DNA of 64,000 bases from Spirosoma lacussanchae (lineage in GTDB: Bacteria > Bacteroidota > Bacteroidia > Cytophagales > Spirosomataceae), in contig NZ_SWJG01000006.1 in NCBI RefSeq assembly GCF_005870035.1, positions 124,001 to 188,000 of the forward strand, given 5' to 3'. A program made the position numbers and the translations under genes. Below are positions 38,555-50,948 of this stretch, in pieces; position 1 is the first letter of the stretch; each line of letters starts with the position of its first letter. Under the pieces are notes generated by a model, which saw only the letters and a program-made list of their open reading frames with translations, searched no databases and was not told the origin of the DNA.

Positions 38555-38569
38555 GATAGTAATACTATC
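38555..38569. promoter_or_regulatory. Palindromic operator candidate for the TetR regulator (site 1)
   Basis: GATAGTAATACTATC is a perfect 7+1+7 palindrome. A weaker relative, GATATTGTTGCTATC, follows at 38576-38590, 21 bp centre to centre, which is two helical turns. They lie between the divergent tetR and exporter genes. A second perfect copy is at 46885-46899. Confidence 0.7.
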
Positions 38570-38621
38570 AAAATAGATATTGTTGCTATCTTTTCAAGTA
38601 GTTACATACACAAATCTAGTC

Positions 38622-39461: not shown

Positions 39462-40463
39462 ATGGCAACTTCAACGTCATCTGATCCAACACCAACACCA
39501 ACACAACGACTGATCCGGCTGCTCAGTAATGATAAAAAAGACATTGGCTACATCTACCTGTACGCGCTGGTTACGGGGCTGATCAGTCTGTCGCTGCCGC
39601 TGGGTATCCAGGCCGTATTTAACCTGGTATCGGGTGGGTTAGTCTTCAGTTCGGTTTATTTGCTGATTGGCCTCGTTATTCTGGGTGTACTGTTGTCTGG
39701 TTTACTGCTCGTGAGCCAGATGATGCTGGTCGAAGTTCTGCAGCAGCGGGTTTTCGCCAAGGCGGCTTTCGAATTTACTTACCGACTGCCCCGTATCCAG
39801 CCCGACGCGTTTGCTGGCTATTACCCACCCGAGCTGATGAACCGTTTTTTCGATGTGCTGACCATTCAGAAAGGAATGCCCAAGCTGTTGATCGATTTGA
39901 CAGCAGCCGCGGTACAGATTCTGTTCGGTATTATTCTGCTGTCGGCCTACCACCCGGTTTTTCTGGCGTTTGGTTTGTTCACCATGGTGGCTATCGTCGG
40001 CATTTGCTGGATATACGGGCCGGTCGGGTTGAAAACCAGTCTGAACGAGTCGAAATACAAGTACAAGGTGGTGGCCTGGCTCGAGGATGTAGCCCGTGAT
40101 CTGCCTATTCACCGGCACCGGACCGATTCACTGGAAACGATTGATCGCATGGATGAACTGGTGGCCAGCTACGTGGGTTACCGGAATCAGCATTTTAGCG
40201 TACTGCGCCGTTTTTTTTACAGTGGTGTGGCATTCAAGACCATCGTAACCGGGGGGCTGCTGATTCTGGGGACTACCCTGGTAGTTGGCCGCGAAATGTC
40301 GCTTGGGCAGTTTGTTGCCGCTGAGCTGGTAATCGTTCTGATTACGAGCTCGGTCGATAAACTCATGTCAGGCATCGATACCGTATTCGACATGCTGACG
40401 GCCGTTGAAAAAATTGGTTACGTAACCGATCTTCCCTTATCTGATTTACACCTTACCGACTAA
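39462..40463 (+). CDS. ABC exporter transmembrane subunit without ATPase domain
   Basis: A 333-residue type-1 ABC exporter transmembrane domain of the kind found in type I secretion and peptide exporters. Hydrophobic helices include IGYIYLYALVTGLISLSLP, VYLLIGLVILGVLLSGLLLV, QILFGIILLSAYHPVFLAFG and IVTGGLLILGTTLVV. The protein stops at AVEKIGYVTDLPLSDLHLTD, just where a nucleotide-binding domain normally begins. The following 118 bp hold no Walker or signature motifs in any frame. HlyD and TolC genes follow, so the exporter set is complete except for ATPase. It may borrow an NBD in trans or use another energy source. Confidence 0.85.
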   Translation: MATSTSSDPTPTPTQRLIRLLSNDKKDIGYIYLYALVTGLISLSLPLGIQAVFNLVSGGLVFSSVYLLIGLVILGVLLSGLLLVSQMMLVEVLQQRVFAKAAFEFTYRLPRIQPDAFAGYYPPELMNRFFDVLTIQKGMPKLLIDLTAAAVQILFGIILLSAYHPVFLAFGLFTMVAIVGICWIYGPVGLKTSLNESKYKYKVVAWLEDVARDLPIHRHRTDSLETIDRMDELVASYVGYRNQHFSVLRRFFYSGVAFKTIVTGGLLILGTTLVVGREMSLGQFVAAELVIVLITSSVDKLMSGIDTVFDMLTAVEKIGYVTDLPLSDLHLTD

Positions 40464-40581: not shown

Positions 40582-41940
40582 ATGCTAAACATATCGAATC
40601 AACGGGTCGATGAAGAACTCTTCAACCACTATCCGCTCAAAACGCTGCGCACCCTGCCCCATACGGATGCCGGTCGCCGGTTAGGACGTTGGATGGCGTT
40701 TATTCTGCTGGTCGGCCTGGCTGTCATGTTTCTGCCCTGGCAGCAGAATATCAACGGAGAAGGCAAGCTAACGGCTCTGACTCCAAAAGATCGTCCGCAA
40801 ACGGTACAGAATGCCATTGCGGGCCGGATTGAACGCTGGAACGTGCAGGAAGGCCAGTACGTCAAGGCGGGGGACACGCTGCTGGTGATCTCCGAGATTA
40901 AGGACGAATACTTTGATCCCAACCTGCCCCAGCGGCTCGATGAGCAACTGGATGCCAAACAGGGCACCAGCGATGCAACTGTCGCCAAAATTAACGCACT
41001 CGATGACCAGATTGCAGCGCTCCGGGCGGGCTTGAAAGTGAAGCTGGAAGCTGCCCGCAATAAGGTCAAACAAAGCGAGTTCAAAGTACAGGCCGACCAG
41101 GCCGACCTGACCGCCATCCGCAGAAATTACCAGATTGCGCTAGACCGGCTCGACCGTTTTGAGAAAGGGTACAAAAATGGCCTGTTTTCGCTGACCGATT
41201 TGGAATCGCGCCGACTGAAGGTGCAGGAAGATTATGCCAAAGTTGTATCGCAGGAGAACAAAGTGAATGTGTCGCAACAGGAGCTGGTCAACGCGCGGCT
41301 GGACCTGACAAACATTCAGGCCGATTATCAGGAGAAGCTGGCCAAGGCCGAATCGGACCGGAGTTCGGCGGTCTCTTACCTGGCCGAAGCCGGGGGCGAA
41401 ATATCCAAGCTGCGGAATAAAATCAGTAGTGTCGATGTACGCCGGGGACTTTACATCGTACGGGCCCCGCAGAATGGCTACGTAGTGCGCTCACTGAAGG
41501 CCGGTATCGGCGAGACCATCAAAGAAGGCGAATCCATTGCTACCCTCCAGCCGGATAACCCGGCGCTGGCCGTTGAGTTGTACGTGCGGGCTATGGACGT
41601 GCCCCTGATTCAGCGGGGTCGCACCGTTCGGTTACAGTTCGATGGCTGGCCGGCGATTCAGTTCTCGGGCTGGCCGGCCGTAGCGGTCGGTACGTTTGGT
41701 GGCGAAGTGGTCGTCATTGATGCCGTCAGTAGCGTAGGCGGGAAATATCGATTACTGGTTAGCCCCAAAGTACAGAAAGGCGATCAGCCCTGGCCGAGTC
41801 AGCTGCGGGTCGGATCGGGCGTGTATGGCTGGGTCATGCTCGACGACGTACCGGTATGGTACGAACTATGGCGTCAGTTAAACGGCTTCCCGCCCAGTTT
41901 GCAGGAAGAACCCACCGAGGAGAAAGGAGCTAAAAAATGA
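40582..41940 (+). CDS. HlyD-family membrane fusion protein
   Basis: A 452-residue type I secretion-type adaptor. One inner-membrane helix (WMAFILLVGLAVMFLPW, about residues 34-50) is followed by a lipoyl half-motif (GRIERWNVQEGQYVKAGDTLLVI). A long coiled coil follows (residues about 110-290, heptads rich in Lys/Asp/Gln/Leu). The second lipoyl half reads IVRAPQNGYVVRSLKAGIGETIKEG. The C-terminus has VRLQFDGWPAIQFSGWPAVAVGTFGG, typical of HlyD proteins. It sits between the ABC transmembrane gene and TolC, whose start overlaps its stop by 4 bp. Confidence 0.93.
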   Translation: MLNISNQRVDEELFNHYPLKTLRTLPHTDAGRRLGRWMAFILLVGLAVMFLPWQQNINGEGKLTALTPKDRPQTVQNAIAGRIERWNVQEGQYVKAGDTLLVISEIKDEYFDPNLPQRLDEQLDAKQGTSDATVAKINALDDQIAALRAGLKVKLEAARNKVKQSEFKVQADQADLTAIRRNYQIALDRLDRFEKGYKNGLFSLTDLESRRLKVQEDYAKVVSQENKVNVSQQELVNARLDLTNIQADYQEKLAKAESDRSSAVSYLAEAGGEISKLRNKISSVDVRRGLYIVRAPQNGYVVRSLKAGIGETIKEGESIATLQPDNPALAVELYVRAMDVPLIQRGRTVRLQFDGWPAIQFSGWPAVAVGTFGGEVVVIDAVSSVGGKYRLLVSPKVQKGDQPWPSQLRVGSGVYGWVMLDDVPVWYELWRQLNGFPPSLQEEPTEEKGAKK

Positions 41941-43388
41941 TGCGTTTGACGTTTCGCTGGCAATCTTCGGTATTCCGAAGGCTGATGCTGGTGGCCGGTG
42001 TCGTGTTCCTGTCAACGGTGCAGGCCGTCTGTCAGCCCGACACAACTGTATTTCCGGCGCAGGCCTTTTATGAACTCATCCGACTCAACCACCCCATTGT
42101 TAAACAGGCTGGCCTGTTTGGCGAAGAAGCCGAGCAGGTGTTGATGCAGGCGCGGGGGGCTTTTGACCCGAAGTTGAGTACTTATTACGACCGGAAAGAA
42201 TTTGCCCGGACCCTGTATTACGACCACTGGCAGAATAAGCTGTCGGTTCCGCTCTGGGTGAGCGGCATCGATCTGAACGTATCCTACGATCGTAACAACG
42301 GGAAGTACATCAACCCGCAGGAAACCACCCCACCGTCGGGGCTGGCGGGCGTAGGGCTGGCGATGCCGATCGGGCAGGCCATGCTGATCGATGCCCGGCG
42401 CAACGCCGTTCGTCAGGCCCGGCTGCTCATTAACCTGGCCGAAGCTGATCGGGTTAAGCAGGTCAACAAAACCCTCTTCGATGCGGCAAAAACCTACTGG
42501 GAGTGGTTCCTGGCTCATCGGCAACGGCAATTACTTGTCGAAGGCTATGACCTGGCCGACCGTCGGTTCCGGGCATTGCGCCAACGGGCACTCCTGGGCG
42601 ATGCGGCCATGATCGATACGACCGAAGCACTCATTACCGTGCAGGACCGACTGGTGCAGCGGCAACAGGCCGAACTGGATGAGCAGAATGCCCGCCTGCG
42701 TGTGAATACATTTCTCTGGAATGCCGAAGGACAGCCGGTCGAGTTGCCGGTAACGGCTATTCCGCAGGAGCCCTCGCTGGCCACCCCGGACGAAAATCTG
42801 CTCCAGGCGCTGCTGGACCAGGCTGCGCAACGCCATCCGGAGCTGCTGAAACTTGATATCAAGAACCAGCAGCTGACCATAGAGGAGCGTTTCCGCCGGG
42901 CCATGATTCAACCGCAGATTCAGCTAAACGCCATGCTGCTCAGCGAAACGCCCCGCATCGATGTGCCCTACAACTGGAGTAGCTATTACGCCTTACGGCC
43001 TCAGAACTACAAAGTAGGTCTCGACTTCGTATTCCCATTGTTTCTGCGGAAAGAGCGCGGTAAACTGCGCGAAGTACAGGTAAAAAACCAGCAGGTTGTT
43101 CTGGAACGCCAGCAGACCGGCCGCGATATAACCAATACGGTGCAGTCGGCCTATAACCAGCTGCAAACGCTACAGCAGCAGATTATCGTTCAGCAGCAGG
43201 TAATTGCCAACCAGCAGCGGTTGATGGAGGCTGAGCAGCAGAAATTCGAGATTGGCGAAAGCAGCCTTTTCCTGGTCAACTCCCGCGAGACCAAGCAGAT
43301 CGACCTGCGCGTAAAGGGCGAAGAGTTGAAAACGAAGTATCAGAAAGCCATTGCCGAGCTGTATTTTGTGGCCGGAACGACCCAGTAA
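41937..43388 (+). CDS. TolC-family outer-membrane channel
   Basis: A 483-residue TolC-type protein with a signal peptide ending near SLSTVQAVCQ (MLVAGVVFLSTVQAVC). Two repeats of long alpha-helical hairpin with Gln-rich coiled coils are seen (QTLQQQIIVQQQVIANQQRL). FDPKLSTYYDRKEF at the start of the mature barrel is typical of Bacteroidota members. It is the outer-membrane exit of the HlyD/ABC system. Its ATG overlaps the HlyD stop. Its stop directly abuts the convergent NUDIX gene with no spacer. Confidence 0.92.
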   Translation: MMRLTFRWQSSVFRRLMLVAGVVFLSTVQAVCQPDTTVFPAQAFYELIRLNHPIVKQAGLFGEEAEQVLMQARGAFDPKLSTYYDRKEFARTLYYDHWQNKLSVPLWVSGIDLNVSYDRNNGKYINPQETTPPSGLAGVGLAMPIGQAMLIDARRNAVRQARLLINLAEADRVKQVNKTLFDAAKTYWEWFLAHRQRQLLVEGYDLADRRFRALRQRALLGDAAMIDTTEALITVQDRLVQRQQAELDEQNARLRVNTFLWNAEGQPVELPVTAIPQEPSLATPDENLLQALLDQAAQRHPELLKLDIKNQQLTIEERFRRAMIQPQIQLNAMLLSETPRIDVPYNWSSYYALRPQNYKVGLDFVFPLFLRKERGKLREVQVKNQQVVLERQQTGRDITNTVQSAYNQLQTLQQQIIVQQQVIANQQRLMEAEQQKFEIGESSLFLVNSRETKQIDLRVKGEELKTKYQKAIAELYFVAGTTQ

Positions 43389-46881: not shown

Positions 46882-46915
46882 TTTGATAGTATTACTATCA
46901 TATTGGTTATTTTTG
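46882..46915 (+). promoter_or_regulatory. icd promoter with embedded palindromic operator (site 2)
   Basis: A -33-like TTTG (46882-46885) and -7-like TATTTTTG (46908-46915), 22 bp apart, match the Bacteroidota pattern. Between them lies the perfect palindrome GATAGTATTACTATC (46885-46899), identical in sequence to site 1 read from the other strand. A repressor there would block RNA polymerase. Confidence 0.7.
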
Positions 46916-46944
46916 CTTTCCTTTGTGCGGTAATTTATACGCAC

Positions 46945-48390
46945 ATGGAAAAAACACCCATCACAGTTGCTTATGGGGACGGTATTGGTCCCGAAATTAT
47001 GCAGGCTACCCTCGATATCTTACAGGCTGGCGGTGCTCAGCTCGATATCGAGACGATTGAGATTGGCGAAAAAGTGTATCTCAGCGGCAACTCCGCCGGT
47101 ATAGCTCCTGAGGCCTGGGAGTCGCTTCGGCGCACGAAGGTTTTTTTGAAAGCACCGATTACAACACCCCAGGGCGGAGGCTTCAAGAGCCTGAACGTAA
47201 CGACGCGTAAAGTGCTGGGTCTGTTTGCCAATGTTCGGCCCTGTGTGGCTTATTCCCCATTCGTCAGCACCAAGCATCCGGCTATGGATGTGGTTATCGT
47301 GCGGGAAAACGAAGAAGATTTGTACGCGGGCATCGAACACCAGCAAACTCAGGAAGTAGTGCAGTGCCTGAAGCTCATCTCGCGGCCCGGTACCGAAAAA
47401 ATCATCCGCTATGCGTTCGAGTATGCCCGCGCCTACGGGCGTAAGAAGGTGACCTGCTTCAGTAAAGACAACATCATGAAGCAGACCGACGGCCTGTTCC
47501 ATAAAGTTTTTGACGAAGTAGCGGCCGAGTATCCGGAGCTGGAAAACGAACACTGGATCGTTGACATCGGAGCGGCCAAACTTGCCGACACTCCAGAAGT
47601 ATTCGATGTGATTGTCATGCCGAATCTCTACGGGGATATACTGTCAGACGTGGCTGCTCAGATTGCGGGGTCGGTCGGTCTGGCCGGTAGCGCGAACATT
47701 GGGCAGGAAGTGGCCATGTTTGAAGCCATACACGGATCGGCTCCCCGTCGGGCGGGTCAGAACCTGGCCAACCCATCGGGGCTGTTACTTGGCTCGATCA
47801 TGATGCTGGTTCATATTGGCCAGAACGAAGCGGCTGAGCGCGTACATAACGCCTGGCTCAAAACGCTGGAAGATGGTATTCATACGTATGACATCTTCGA
47901 CGCCAGCGTGAGCACCGAGAAAGTCGGCACCCGCGAATTTGCGCAGGCTGTTATTGCCCGGCTCGGCCAGAAACCCCAGCAGTTAACCCCGGTCAGTTAT
48001 GCGCAGGCTAAAAACGTAAGTTTCAACGTAACGCCGAAGCCCCAGGCGCCCGTAGCGATTGAAACGGTAGGTGTCGATATCTTCCTTCGCCATACGGATC
48101 GGGACCCGAACAAACTCGGCCAGACCCTCAAAACACATAAAGCAGGCGCTATGAGCCTGTCTATGATCACAAACCGGGGGGTTAAAGTATGGCCAGATGG
48201 GTTTGCGGAAACGTTCTGCACGGATCACTGGCGGTGTCGTTTCAAATCGGAGGCCCTGGAGCCGTCATCGTATCAGGATATTCTGGCGCTGCAGCAATCC
48301 ATTACGGAAGCTGGTTTCGAGATTATCAAAACCGAGAATCTCTGCACCTTCGATGGGCAGCCCGTTTTCTCGGCCGGACAGGGAGCATAG
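46945..48390 (+). CDS. icd: NADP-dependent isocitrate dehydrogenase (Thermus-type)
   Basis: A 481-residue member of the isocitrate/isopropylmalate dehydrogenase family, converting isocitrate to 2-oxoglutarate in the TCA cycle. The ORF opens 42 bp earlier, but the start at 46945 (MEKTPITVAYGDGIGPEIM) fits the family. Motifs include the substrate loop LNVTTRKVLGLFANVRPC, IVRENEEDLYAGIEH, the metal site VMPNLYGDILSDVAAQIAG and the cofactor loop EAIHGSAPRRAGQNLANPSG. A C-terminal extension of about 130 residues (TVGVDIFLRHTDRDPNKLG...) matches the longer Thermus/Bacteroidota form. Its promoter carries the candidate TetR operator. Confidence 0.93.
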   Translation: MEKTPITVAYGDGIGPEIMQATLDILQAGGAQLDIETIEIGEKVYLSGNSAGIAPEAWESLRRTKVFLKAPITTPQGGGFKSLNVTTRKVLGLFANVRPCVAYSPFVSTKHPAMDVVIVRENEEDLYAGIEHQQTQEVVQCLKLISRPGTEKIIRYAFEYARAYGRKKVTCFSKDNIMKQTDGLFHKVFDEVAAEYPELENEHWIVDIGAAKLADTPEVFDVIVMPNLYGDILSDVAAQIAGSVGLAGSANIGQEVAMFEAIHGSAPRRAGQNLANPSGLLLGSIMMLVHIGQNEAAERVHNAWLKTLEDGIHTYDIFDASVSTEKVGTREFAQAVIARLGQKPQQLTPVSYAQAKNVSFNVTPKPQAPVAIETVGVDIFLRHTDRDPNKLGQTLKTHKAGAMSLSMITNRGVKVWPDGFAETFCTDHWRCRFKSEALEPSSYQDILALQQSITEAGFEIIKTENLCTFDGQPVFSAGQGA

Positions 48391-48444: not shown

Positions 48445-48726
48445 ATGACAAATCAACACGATTTTCAACTCATCAATGGCCGATTCAGTAGCAATGAGGC
48501 CGAGTTATTGATCAGTGAACTGGCCCAGGCCAAAATACAGCACCATATGCGTCGGATTGCCTGGCACGATTATGCCGAAGAAGACATCAAGGCCCTGGAA
48601 GTCCGCATCCGCGAAATAGAAACCGACCTGCGCGAAACAATCCGGCTTATCAAGACAACCGCCGGGCCTGAAGGGTCAGTGGATATCGAGGGAGTTATCC
48701 GAATGCGTTTCGTTCGTCAGGTGTAG
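48445..48726 (+). CDS. Small helical protein
   Basis: A 93-residue protein of unknown family. It is predicted to be mostly helical, with a charged heptad-like middle (KALEVRIREIETDLRETIRLI). No signal peptide or membrane segment is present. It starts 54 bp after icd on the same strand and may be co-transcribed. Its final 51 bp overlap the 3' end of the convergent histidine kinase gene, so transcription of either affects the other. Function cannot be assigned. Confidence 0.6.
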   Translation: MTNQHDFQLINGRFSSNEAELLISELAQAKIQHHMRRIAWHDYAEEDIKALEVRIREIETDLRETIRLIKTTAGPEGSVDIEGVIRMRFVRQV

Positions 48727-50100
48727 TACCGATTGACGCAGGGCCGCGTTGGTCTGCGTCGGTAAACTGATCCGGAAGGTGGTCCCCTTATTTAAGACAG
48801 ACTCTACCTCAATCCGGCCCTGATGGAGGTCAATGATGCGTCGGGTCAGGGCCAGTCCAATGCCGTGCCCATGAATGGTCAGTACGTTCTCAGAGCGGAA
48901 AAACGGTTCGAAAATATGTTGAATGTCGCCGGGTGGAATTCCCTGTCCATGGTCACTGATGGTCAGATGAATTTCGCCCGGCTCAAAAGCGATTCGTACC
49001 GATACCTGCTCGTCGGCTGAATACTTGCATCCGTTTTCGAGCAGGTTCTGAAGCGCCGTCTGCAACAGTGACTCTTCGCCCATGATCACCAGGTCTTCTT
49101 CCTGATCGGGCAGGTTTTCGAAGTCGATGTCGATCTGATAGGAAGGTTTTTTCTGGGTGATCTGGCTCTGGGCCTGCCACAGCAGCTCATCGATCCGGAC
49201 GGGCTGGTATCGCAACATAACCGCGTCGGCGTTGGCCTGGGCCAGCTCGAGAAGTCCATTGACCAGACGAATCATGTTCTGCACCTCATCGAGCAAACCG
49301 TCCAGCGCGGCTTCGTAGTCCGGTCCGGTTCGGGGTTGCAGCCGGGTCACCTCAATCTGGCCCATCATGACCGTCAGCGGAGTCCGGAGTTCGTGCGACG
49401 CATGTGAAACAAAACTCTTCTGGGTAACGAAGGCCACCTCAAGGCGACTCAGCAGGGCGTTGAAGGTGCGGGCCAGCGCAGCCAGTTCATCTCGCTGACG
49501 ACCAACCCGGAGCCGCTCATGAATGTTAGTGGCGGAGATAGAGTTGACCTGAGCAATAAGTTCAGCAACGGGCCGGAGCGCATCGGTCGCAAACAGGTAA
49601 CCGGCAATGCCGGCGATGAGCAGGCTGAGCAGCCATCCTACCGCCAGCAAATCGCGCAATCGGCCGAGTTTGCTAAAGCCGTAGCGATCATTGGCCGAGA
49701 CAAAAATAACGAACGACTGACCCCGGCTATTCTGCGACCGCACGCCAACGGCTTCTATATCGCCCTGTCGGAGGTACTGGGGTTGTCGGGTTGTAATTCG
49801 GCGCAGGAGGCCCGGCGATACCGGAAAGCGGGGGCGCTGAGCGCCTTTGCTGTATAGAACCAGACCCTGGTCATTGTAAATAGTGATCTGCTCATCGATC
49901 ATGAACGACAGATCTGTACGGGGCATTTCGCCAACATCTTCCCGCAACTGAATGGTGGTGAAAGCGCGTTCCTCGAGTCGCTGCTGAAATTCCTGTTGTC
50001 GAAACTGATCGTAAAAATAATAGACAGACCCCGTAAACAGCAGCATGATTAACGCGACCAGAAGCACGAAAAGCAGTGTTAGGCGAGTCCGTATATTCAT
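48676..50100 (-). CDS. Sensor histidine kinase (two-component, EnvZ/CusS-like layout)
   Basis: A 474-residue membrane kinase. TM1 is LLFVLLVALIMLLFTGSVYYF, the periplasmic sensor spans about 35-150, and TM2 is LLAVGWLLSLLIAGIAGYLF. A HAMP domain follows. The phosphoacceptor H-box FVSHASHELRTPLTVMMGQIE lies near 237, then the N, G1 (GQGIPPGD) and G2 (HGHGIGLAL) boxes of the ATPase domain. It follows its OmpR-type response regulator by 82 bp. Close to the CzcCBA operon, it may sense metal or envelope stress, but the ligand is unknown. Confidence 0.93.
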   Translation of the reverse strand: MNIRTRLTLLFVLLVALIMLLFTGSVYYFYDQFRQQEFQQRLEERAFTTIQLREDVGEMPRTDLSFMIDEQITIYNDQGLVLYSKGAQRPRFPVSPGLLRRITTRQPQYLRQGDIEAVGVRSQNSRGQSFVIFVSANDRYGFSKLGRLRDLLAVGWLLSLLIAGIAGYLFATDALRPVAELIAQVNSISATNIHERLRVGRQRDELAALARTFNALLSRLEVAFVTQKSFVSHASHELRTPLTVMMGQIEVTRLQPRTGPDYEAALDGLLDEVQNMIRLVNGLLELAQANADAVMLRYQPVRIDELLWQAQSQITQKKPSYQIDIDFENLPDQEEDLVIMGEESLLQTALQNLLENGCKYSADEQVSVRIAFEPGEIHLTISDHGQGIPPGDIQHIFEPFFRSENVLTIHGHGIGLALTRRIIDLHQGRIEVESVLNKGTTFRISLPTQTNAALRQSVLHLTNETHSDNSLDIH

Positions 50101-50182
50101 GGAAATAAAGGCGGGGCAGGGGGAAGTAGCGAAAGAACTGGTGAGTAGACTGGTGCGGCTTTCCTACCCCGGTTCTCCTCTG

Positions 50183-50860
50183 TCACTCCTCTTTGAGCAT
50201 ATAGCCCATACCAATTACGGTATGAATTAATTTATGGGGAAAGTCTTTATCGACTTTTTTGCGGAGAAAGTTAACGTAAACATCGATTACATTCGTGCCG
50301 GTATCGAAATGGATATCCCAGACTTTCTCGGCAATGTCGACTCTGGAAACCACCCGGCCCCGATTCCGCATCAGGTAATCGAGCAGACCAAATTCCTTAG
50401 CCGTTAGTTCGATGCGTTTGTTGCCCCGGCGGGCTACCTTCTCGTTCAGGTCCAGCTCCAGATCGCCTACTTTCAATACATTTGACTGGGTGCCGGGGTC
50501 GGTAGCCCGTTTGGTCAGGGCGCGCAGGCGGGCCATCAGTTCCCGAAATTCGAACGGCTTGACCAGGTAGTCGTCGGCGCCGGACTCGAAACCCGTCAGT
50601 TTATCATCTACCGAACTCATGGCAGTCAGCATCAGAACCGGCGTCCTGACCTGCTCCTGCCGCAGGGCCTGAACAACGTCATACCCATTCATTTTGGGCA
50701 GGTTAACGTCCATTACAATAACGTCATACGTATTGTTCAGGGCCATATTTCGACCTACTTGTCCGTCGTAGGCAATATCTACCTCACAGGATTGCTCTTC
50801 CAGTCCTTTTTTTACGAACGAGGCCAACTTTGGCTCGTCCTCAACCATCAGAATCTTCAT
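50183..50860 (-). CDS. OmpR-family response regulator
   Basis: About 225 residues from the start MKILMVEDEPKLASFVKK; the upstream extension to 50902 is not family-like. The receiver domain has the phosphoacceptor Asp in VIVMDVNLPKMNGYDV near 51 and the Lys in DDYLVKPFEF near 101. The winged-helix DNA-binding domain includes KVARRGNKRIELTAKEFGLLDYL. It forms a pair with the kinase just downstream. The closest likely targets are the metal-efflux genes upstream on the same strand. The region between holds a structured RNA candidate. Confidence 0.95.
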   Translation of the reverse strand: MKILMVEDEPKLASFVKKGLEEQSCEVDIAYDGQVGRNMALNNTYDVIVMDVNLPKMNGYDVVQALRQEQVRTPVLMLTAMSSVDDKLTGFESGADDYLVKPFEFRELMARLRALTKRATDPGTQSNVLKVGDLELDLNEKVARRGNKRIELTAKEFGLLDYLMRNRGRVVSRVDIAEKVWDIHFDTGTNVIDVYVNFLRKKVDKDFPHKLIHTVIGMGYMLKEE

Positions 50861-50948
50861 ATCGGCAACATACGCACCTATTTTGTTATTTAAAAATGGC
50901 AAACGGTTTTATTTTAAGGTGACGAGTGCAAAAAAACAAATACCCCCA

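Follow-up and report, generated by a model that had tools for sequence, protein, structure and literature searches.

A predicted TetR-family operator in an isocitrate dehydrogenase promoter of Spirosoma and its possible tie to bicarbonate and CO2 supply

The window, the whole stretch of 64,000 nucleotides of Spirosoma lacussanchae DNA analyzed here, holds a 15-bp palindrome between a tetR gene and a divergent exporter operon, and the same palindrome recurs in the promoter of an isocitrate dehydrogenase gene (icd). The initial annotation took this as a sign that the regulator of an exporter also controls a TCA-cycle enzyme, perhaps in response to a 2-oxoglutarate, citrate or redox signal. Does one regulator act at both promoters, and what might it sense?

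The palindrome and the TetR protein encoded beside it

A sequence check of both positions confirmed that GATAGTATTACTATC lies within the icd promoter and that its reverse complement, GATAGTAATACTATC, lies between tetR and the exporter operon (Table 1). A degenerate copy with 3 mismatches, GATATTGTTGCTATC, is found 21 bp past the primary tetR-side site, and this 21-bp spacing of a second copy is seen again at tetR relatives. The 6.33 Mb genome (G000) contains two perfect GATAGTANTACTATC sites, the one in the icd promoter and the one beside tetR, together with one site carrying one mismatch and six carrying two. The backward pattern, used as a control, gave 14 sites at ≤2 mismatches. This threshold covers 862 different sequences including the exact one, so ~0.016 perfect sites are expected in the genome by chance. 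The rarity claimed for the pattern was thus borne out, and the genome-wide search did not return the many random copies that had been named as a refutation of the proposed link. The three sites with no more than one mismatch all lie between genes, on the upstream side of a gene. Of the six sites with two mismatches, five fall within coding frames, and the two-mismatch sites were rejected as further regulon members for this reason. A chance origin of the palindrome was rejected on its rarity in the genome and its conservation among relatives.

Table 1. Coordinates of the tetR, exporter and icd features in the window
Feature	Position	Strand	Basis
tetR, TetR-type regulator, 228 aa	37785..38471	-	TetR_N E=3.5e-9; alignment; model pLDDT 90
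Primary TetR operator (predicted), tetR/exporter divergent promoter	38555..38569	+	sequence, genome scan, relatives
Degenerate second operator copy	38576..38590	+	sequence; recurs 21 bp away in relatives
First ORF of divergent exporter operon, 271 aa	38625..39440	+	no family match
ABC-type transmembrane protein without ATPase domain	39462..40463	+	PF00664 only
HlyD-family adaptor	40582..41940	+	profile match
TolC-family outer-membrane protein	41937..43388	+	profile match
TetR operator (predicted) GATAGTATTACTATC in icd promoter	46885..46899	+	sequence, genome scan, promoter alignment
Conserved -7-like box TTCCTTTG, TAnnTTTG type	46918..46925	+	alignment of 11 icd promoters
icd, NADP-dependent isocitrate dehydrogenase (PRK09222/ICDH_alpha type), second IDH	46945..48390	+	profile match

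The TetR protein scores 36.8 bits against PF00440, the N-terminal TetR_N helix-turn-helix (curated cut-off 24), and its AlphaFold2 model (pLDDT 90.3) is all helical with a C-terminal ligand/dimer domain. The best PDB matches to the model are TetR proteins with TM values of about 0.5-0.66, the closest being of the FadR/EthR type. To our knowledge, TetR folds are all alike. A search against the named TetR equivalogs (FadR, KstR, BetI, TetR and RefZ) gave 28.7 bits at best, below NCBIfam cut-offs of at least 180. The protein is unusually conserved, with 37 invariant columns in an alignment of 73 sequences, and several of these are located in the C-terminal domain (E131, K134, T138, N145, E183, H186, Q188 and LPxLTD).

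Relatives of tetR were taken with their surroundings at 80 loci, 79 of which had enough upstream sequence. The palindrome is present at ≤2 mismatches upstream of tetR in 67 of the 79, compared with 0.15 in shuffled upstream regions, which places a palindromic operator at the regulator's own promoter as in the TetR/AcrR family. Its distance from the tetR start has a median of 94 bp and is mostly 55-130 bp. The operator-bearing relatives span Bacteroidota, Methylobacter, Nitrotoga and others, and the core ATAGTA-N-TACTAT is nearly invariant although the TetRs are only ~50% identical, Methylobacter, Nitrotoga and a Bdellovibrionales MAG included. From these comparisons we infer that the TetR encoded in the window uses the palindrome as its operator.

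The 271-aa ORF directly behind the operator has no Pfam or NCBIfam match, and in the Spirosomaceae relatives seen the operon starts with the ABC gene, not with this ORF. ABC proteins at related tetR loci have ATPase domains, mostly without a canonical Walker A. The transmembrane-only ABC protein of the window and the usual lack of a canonical Walker A at related loci suggest an ATPase-dead ABC/HlyD/TolC system.

The icd promoter site in related genomes

Genus and family searches found the site in 11 icd promoters, with 0-2 mismatches and 60-66 bp ahead of the start. The encoded proteins are 79-100% identical to the icd product of the window and form one clade (support 98/98). Aligning the promoters of diverged lineages on the site gave an identity of 0.89 inside it and 0.29-0.43 in the flanks, the latter about the level of unrelated sequence. 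This alignment indicates that selection has kept the site in icd promoters. In most genomes, tetR is far from the site-bearing icd (0.67 Mb in G155; on other contigs in G039 and G173), and in G173 and G039 the tetR and icd promoters hold the only sites at ≤1 mismatch in the whole genome. The TetR is present in 10 of the 11 genomes; it was not found in G191, an 84% complete MAG.

The site was not found in the second icd clade (clade B, about 61-72% identical), including the TetR-positive genomes G121, G068 and G179, and it is absent from the clade-B icd of G167, a genome that holds both types. The palindrome was therefore rejected as a generic icd promoter feature. A phylum-wide search for more clade-A icds gave one further match beyond the family, with 71% identity and no site. 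The canonical site is missing from the related icds of G006 and G129, and no TetR match was found in these two genomes. In the G006 icd promoter (L156/L253), a pair of AAGTAATACTT-like palindromes ~22 bp apart replaces the canonical site and may serve a regulator whose specificity has shifted. Extra sites in G155 (L177, L185), G149 (L204), G191 and G179 share no consistent target.

The -7 box first proposed for icd, TATTTTTG (46908-46915), did not hold up because it is not conserved among the icd promoters. A different box is conserved (Table 1), and the distance from the operator centre to the start of its TTTG is nearly constant at 29-32 bp, as read by eye from the printed alignment. Promoters with the TAnnTTTG consensus have this -7 box at -12 to -5 (PMC9723704), which makes the icd operator span roughly -45 to -31 and overlap the -33 region. 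A dimer bound there would block polymerase, making repression the default reading rather than activation.

The icd product scores 785 bits against the PRK09222-type equivalog (cut-off 509). Another NADP-IDH, of the eukaryotic type, is encoded at C1:346116, so the operator-bearing icd is an accessory isozyme and not the only IDH. The site-associated icd type is divergent from tetR in three other genomes, namely G026 from the same family, L056 (a Cyclobacteriaceae MAG) and L116 (a MAG labelled Chitinophaga pinensis), and it is the second gene at the tetR locus of L054. An ABC-HlyD-TolC set is downstream of tetR in L116. The shared tetR-icd promoter keeps a 2-mismatch operator in L116; the palindromes of L056 and G026 have diverged (6 mismatches in G026). 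The link between tetR, icd and the exporter thus takes the form of adjacency or, in Spirosomaceae, of an operator in trans. The proposal that the exporter-side regulator also controls icd is strongly supported by a rare site kept between diverged flanks and by tetR-icd adjacency in three genomes; the meaning given to this link was not supported in the form proposed. The gene after icd in three tetR-adjacent loci encodes a conserved ~285 aa protein with a cysteine-rich tail (cluster 6; -2419..-1568 from the tetR start in L056, -2621..-1764 in L116 and -2445..-1561 in L203). This protein is also found near tetR in Methylobacter loci.

Genes sharing the operator and the candidate signal

The gene divergent from tetR at the 80 loci encodes SulP (22), an ABC exporter (14), bestrophin (11), PurK with PurE (7), beta-carbonic anhydrase (6), CarB (2), icd (2, plus G026), a 2-oxoacid:ferredoxin oxidoreductase subunit (1) or another protein (15). 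SulP, Pro_CA, Bestrophin_2, PurK, PurE, Sbt_1 and biotin carboxylase were confirmed by Pfam for representatives only, and CarB, AccB and the 2-oxoacid:ferredoxin oxidoreductase were named by eye from sequence. Outside Spirosomaceae, SulP, carbonic anhydrase, bestrophin, SbtA or other members of the group are within about 6 kb at 49/69 tetR loci, a figure that sums the neighbour groups holding 'Ci'. The 1.34 Mb around the tetR genes contains six further sites at ≤1 mismatch off the tetR promoter, and these precede SulP (L051, L060, L077 and L083) or an ABC exporter (L054 and L058). In L051, where tetR and SulP are no longer adjacent, the operator has remained at SulP.

Acetyl-CoA and pyruvate carboxylases and AIR carboxylase are named bicarbonate users (PMC6689103), and PurK is needed unless inorganic carbon/CO2 is high (PMC10880623). 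The neighbour list matches these known bicarbonate-dependent steps. By neighbours and extra operators, the regulon in relatives consists mostly of inorganic-carbon supply and carboxylation genes, and the regulator consequently appears to control how bicarbonate/CO2 is supplied and used. In the Spirosoma genome itself, icd, which releases CO2, is the one gene that fits this description. The neighbourhoods point to inorganic carbon and away from the citrate or redox signal suggested by the initial annotation. The third proposed signal, 2-oxoglutarate, stays possible as the sensed molecule, since it is a co-repressor of cyanobacterial CcmR (PMC3401165).

Our preferred reading, given a probability of roughly 0.7, is that the palindrome is a TetR operator, that the TetR is a bicarbonate/CO2 regulator in relatives, and that in Spirosoma its regulon includes icd and the exporter, derepressed at low carbon. 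On the computed identity, conservation, rarity and gene context of the operator, we infer TetR binding, repression and a response to inorganic-carbon status. TetR would bind upstream of icd and block RNA polymerase. Scarcity of inorganic carbon, or of a metabolite reporting on it, would release TetR, and icd and the exporter would be expressed jointly. The additional IDH would then release CO2 and make 2-oxoglutarate/NADPH in the cell; CO2 release or 2-oxoglutarate/NADPH supply is a possible purpose of icd. By gene context, the exporter and the second IDH look like recruits to a bicarbonate/CO2 regulator. This suggests a connection between a TCA-cycle enzyme and a CO2-supply control circuit in non-photosynthetic bacteria. 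A more specific version is tentative: that the TetR is a one-component sensor binding CO2/bicarbonate itself or a direct product of a bicarbonate-dependent enzyme, that heterotrophic Bacteroidota and several Proteobacteria use it to govern a regulon for CO2 supply, and that icd in Spirosoma serves as a dedicated internal CO2 source. Bicarbonate, 2-oxoglutarate and nucleobases may be ligands. Malonyl-CoA is a weak candidate drawn from the modelled fold, whose nearest matches are acyl-CoA binding FadR types.

Counting against the carbon reading, the exporter has no obvious fit and PurK/PurE and CarB also fit a nucleotide signal. The ligand of E. coli RutR is uracil. It is improbable, but conceivable, that the TetR-icd link is real and that the regulator likewise senses a nucleobase or nucleotide intermediate, with carbon genes following on account of the bicarbonate consumed in purine and pyrimidine synthesis. 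PurK/PurE and CarB share the operator in nine loci, with dihydroorotase near in some, and RutR is a TetR-type one-component regulator that coordinates pyrimidine and purine metabolism (PMC10891134). However, the commonest divergent partners, SulP, bestrophin and carbonic anhydrase (39/80 loci), include no nucleotide-specific step, the extra operators precede SulP, and icd and the exporter are misfits. The dominant partners of the present TetR, whose operator is GATAGTANTACTATC, set it apart from RutR.

It is unlikely as well that the TetR is an ordinary regulator of the exporter, responding to the exported compound or to stress, with icd induced for NADPH supply. Such a regulator would suit the ABC-TM/HlyD/TolC operon divergent from tetR in Spirosomaceae, the NADP type of the IDH and the FadR/EthR-type folds closest to the model, though the last says little when TetR folds resemble one another so closely. 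Most relatives, however, lack the exporter, and SulP, carbonic anhydrase, bestrophin and Pur genes share the operator there. FadR (Bacillus, TetR type) and AibR are the nearest solved structures by fold or sequence profile, but their identity to the present TetR is 16-19%, their ligands are acyl-CoAs, and the fatty-acid or isovalerate genes they control were not found at the present loci. It is very improbable that the icd site is recognized by a different regulator with matching DNA specificity, or that the palindrome arose by chance or for structural reasons. The site without a detected TetR in the incomplete G191 would fit such an origin, but the other ten icd-site genomes have the TetR, and the site is extremely rare in genomes and kept where its flanks diverged.

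The preferred bicarbonate/CO2 reading has a parallel in CcmR/NdhR, a cyanobacterial LysR-type repressor with 2-oxoglutarate and NADP+ as co-repressors that represses its own gene as well as bicarbonate uptake genes at dispersed genomic positions (PMC3401165). These co-repressors are the product and a substrate of NADP-IDH. CcmR/NdhR differs in being of the LysR type and in acting in autotrophs, and its protein and operator are unrelated to those of the present TetR. MpsAB/DAB and the SulP-SbtA-carbonic anhydrase toolkits likewise supply bicarbonate for carboxylations, in heterotrophs too (PMC6689103, PMC10880623), but they are effectors, whereas the present TetR is a regulator. The text of the inorganic-carbon toolkit review names no TetR and no regulator (PMC10880623), and a literature search, in which subscription journals were thinly covered, found no published description of a TetR regulator of bicarbonate genes or icd. 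It is largely an open question how heterotrophic bacteria sense bicarbonate and keep up its supply for carboxylations in fatty-acid, purine and pyrimidine synthesis and in anaplerosis. The present TetR is widespread, and its nearly unchanging operator occurs next to SulP, carbonic anhydrase, bestrophin, PurK/PurE and CarB; as a candidate for such a controller it can be tested directly. The rarity and strong conservation of the operator also allow the complete regulon to be read off from genome sequences. The icd site would place a TCA-cycle isozyme under this TetR through a predicted operator kept by selection.

The regulon in the Spirosoma lineage

The operator was looked for at the SulP and carbonic anhydrase genes of the own genome and none was found, so the carbon link in Spirosoma rests on icd and, weakly, on a two-component system. 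The third site of the genome, with 1 mismatch, is at C17:442046-442060 (L003 1501-1515), 46 bp ahead of an OmpR-type response regulator/kinase pair. Orthologous response regulators (76% identical) also have the site, perfect in G056 (L205) and with one mismatch in Fibrella rubiginis (L241). The perfect operator of G056 (L205 1708-1722) is positioned between the two-component system and a divergent carbonic anhydrase (Pro_CA). The predicted Spirosoma-lineage regulon comprises tetR, the divergent exporter operon and icd, and probably the two-component system. The G056 carbonic anhydrase has an N-terminal extension, and an outer-membrane-like gene follows it. A kinase/response-regulator pair also adjoins icd in the window (48676-50902), and its regulator is 61% identical to the third-site regulator.
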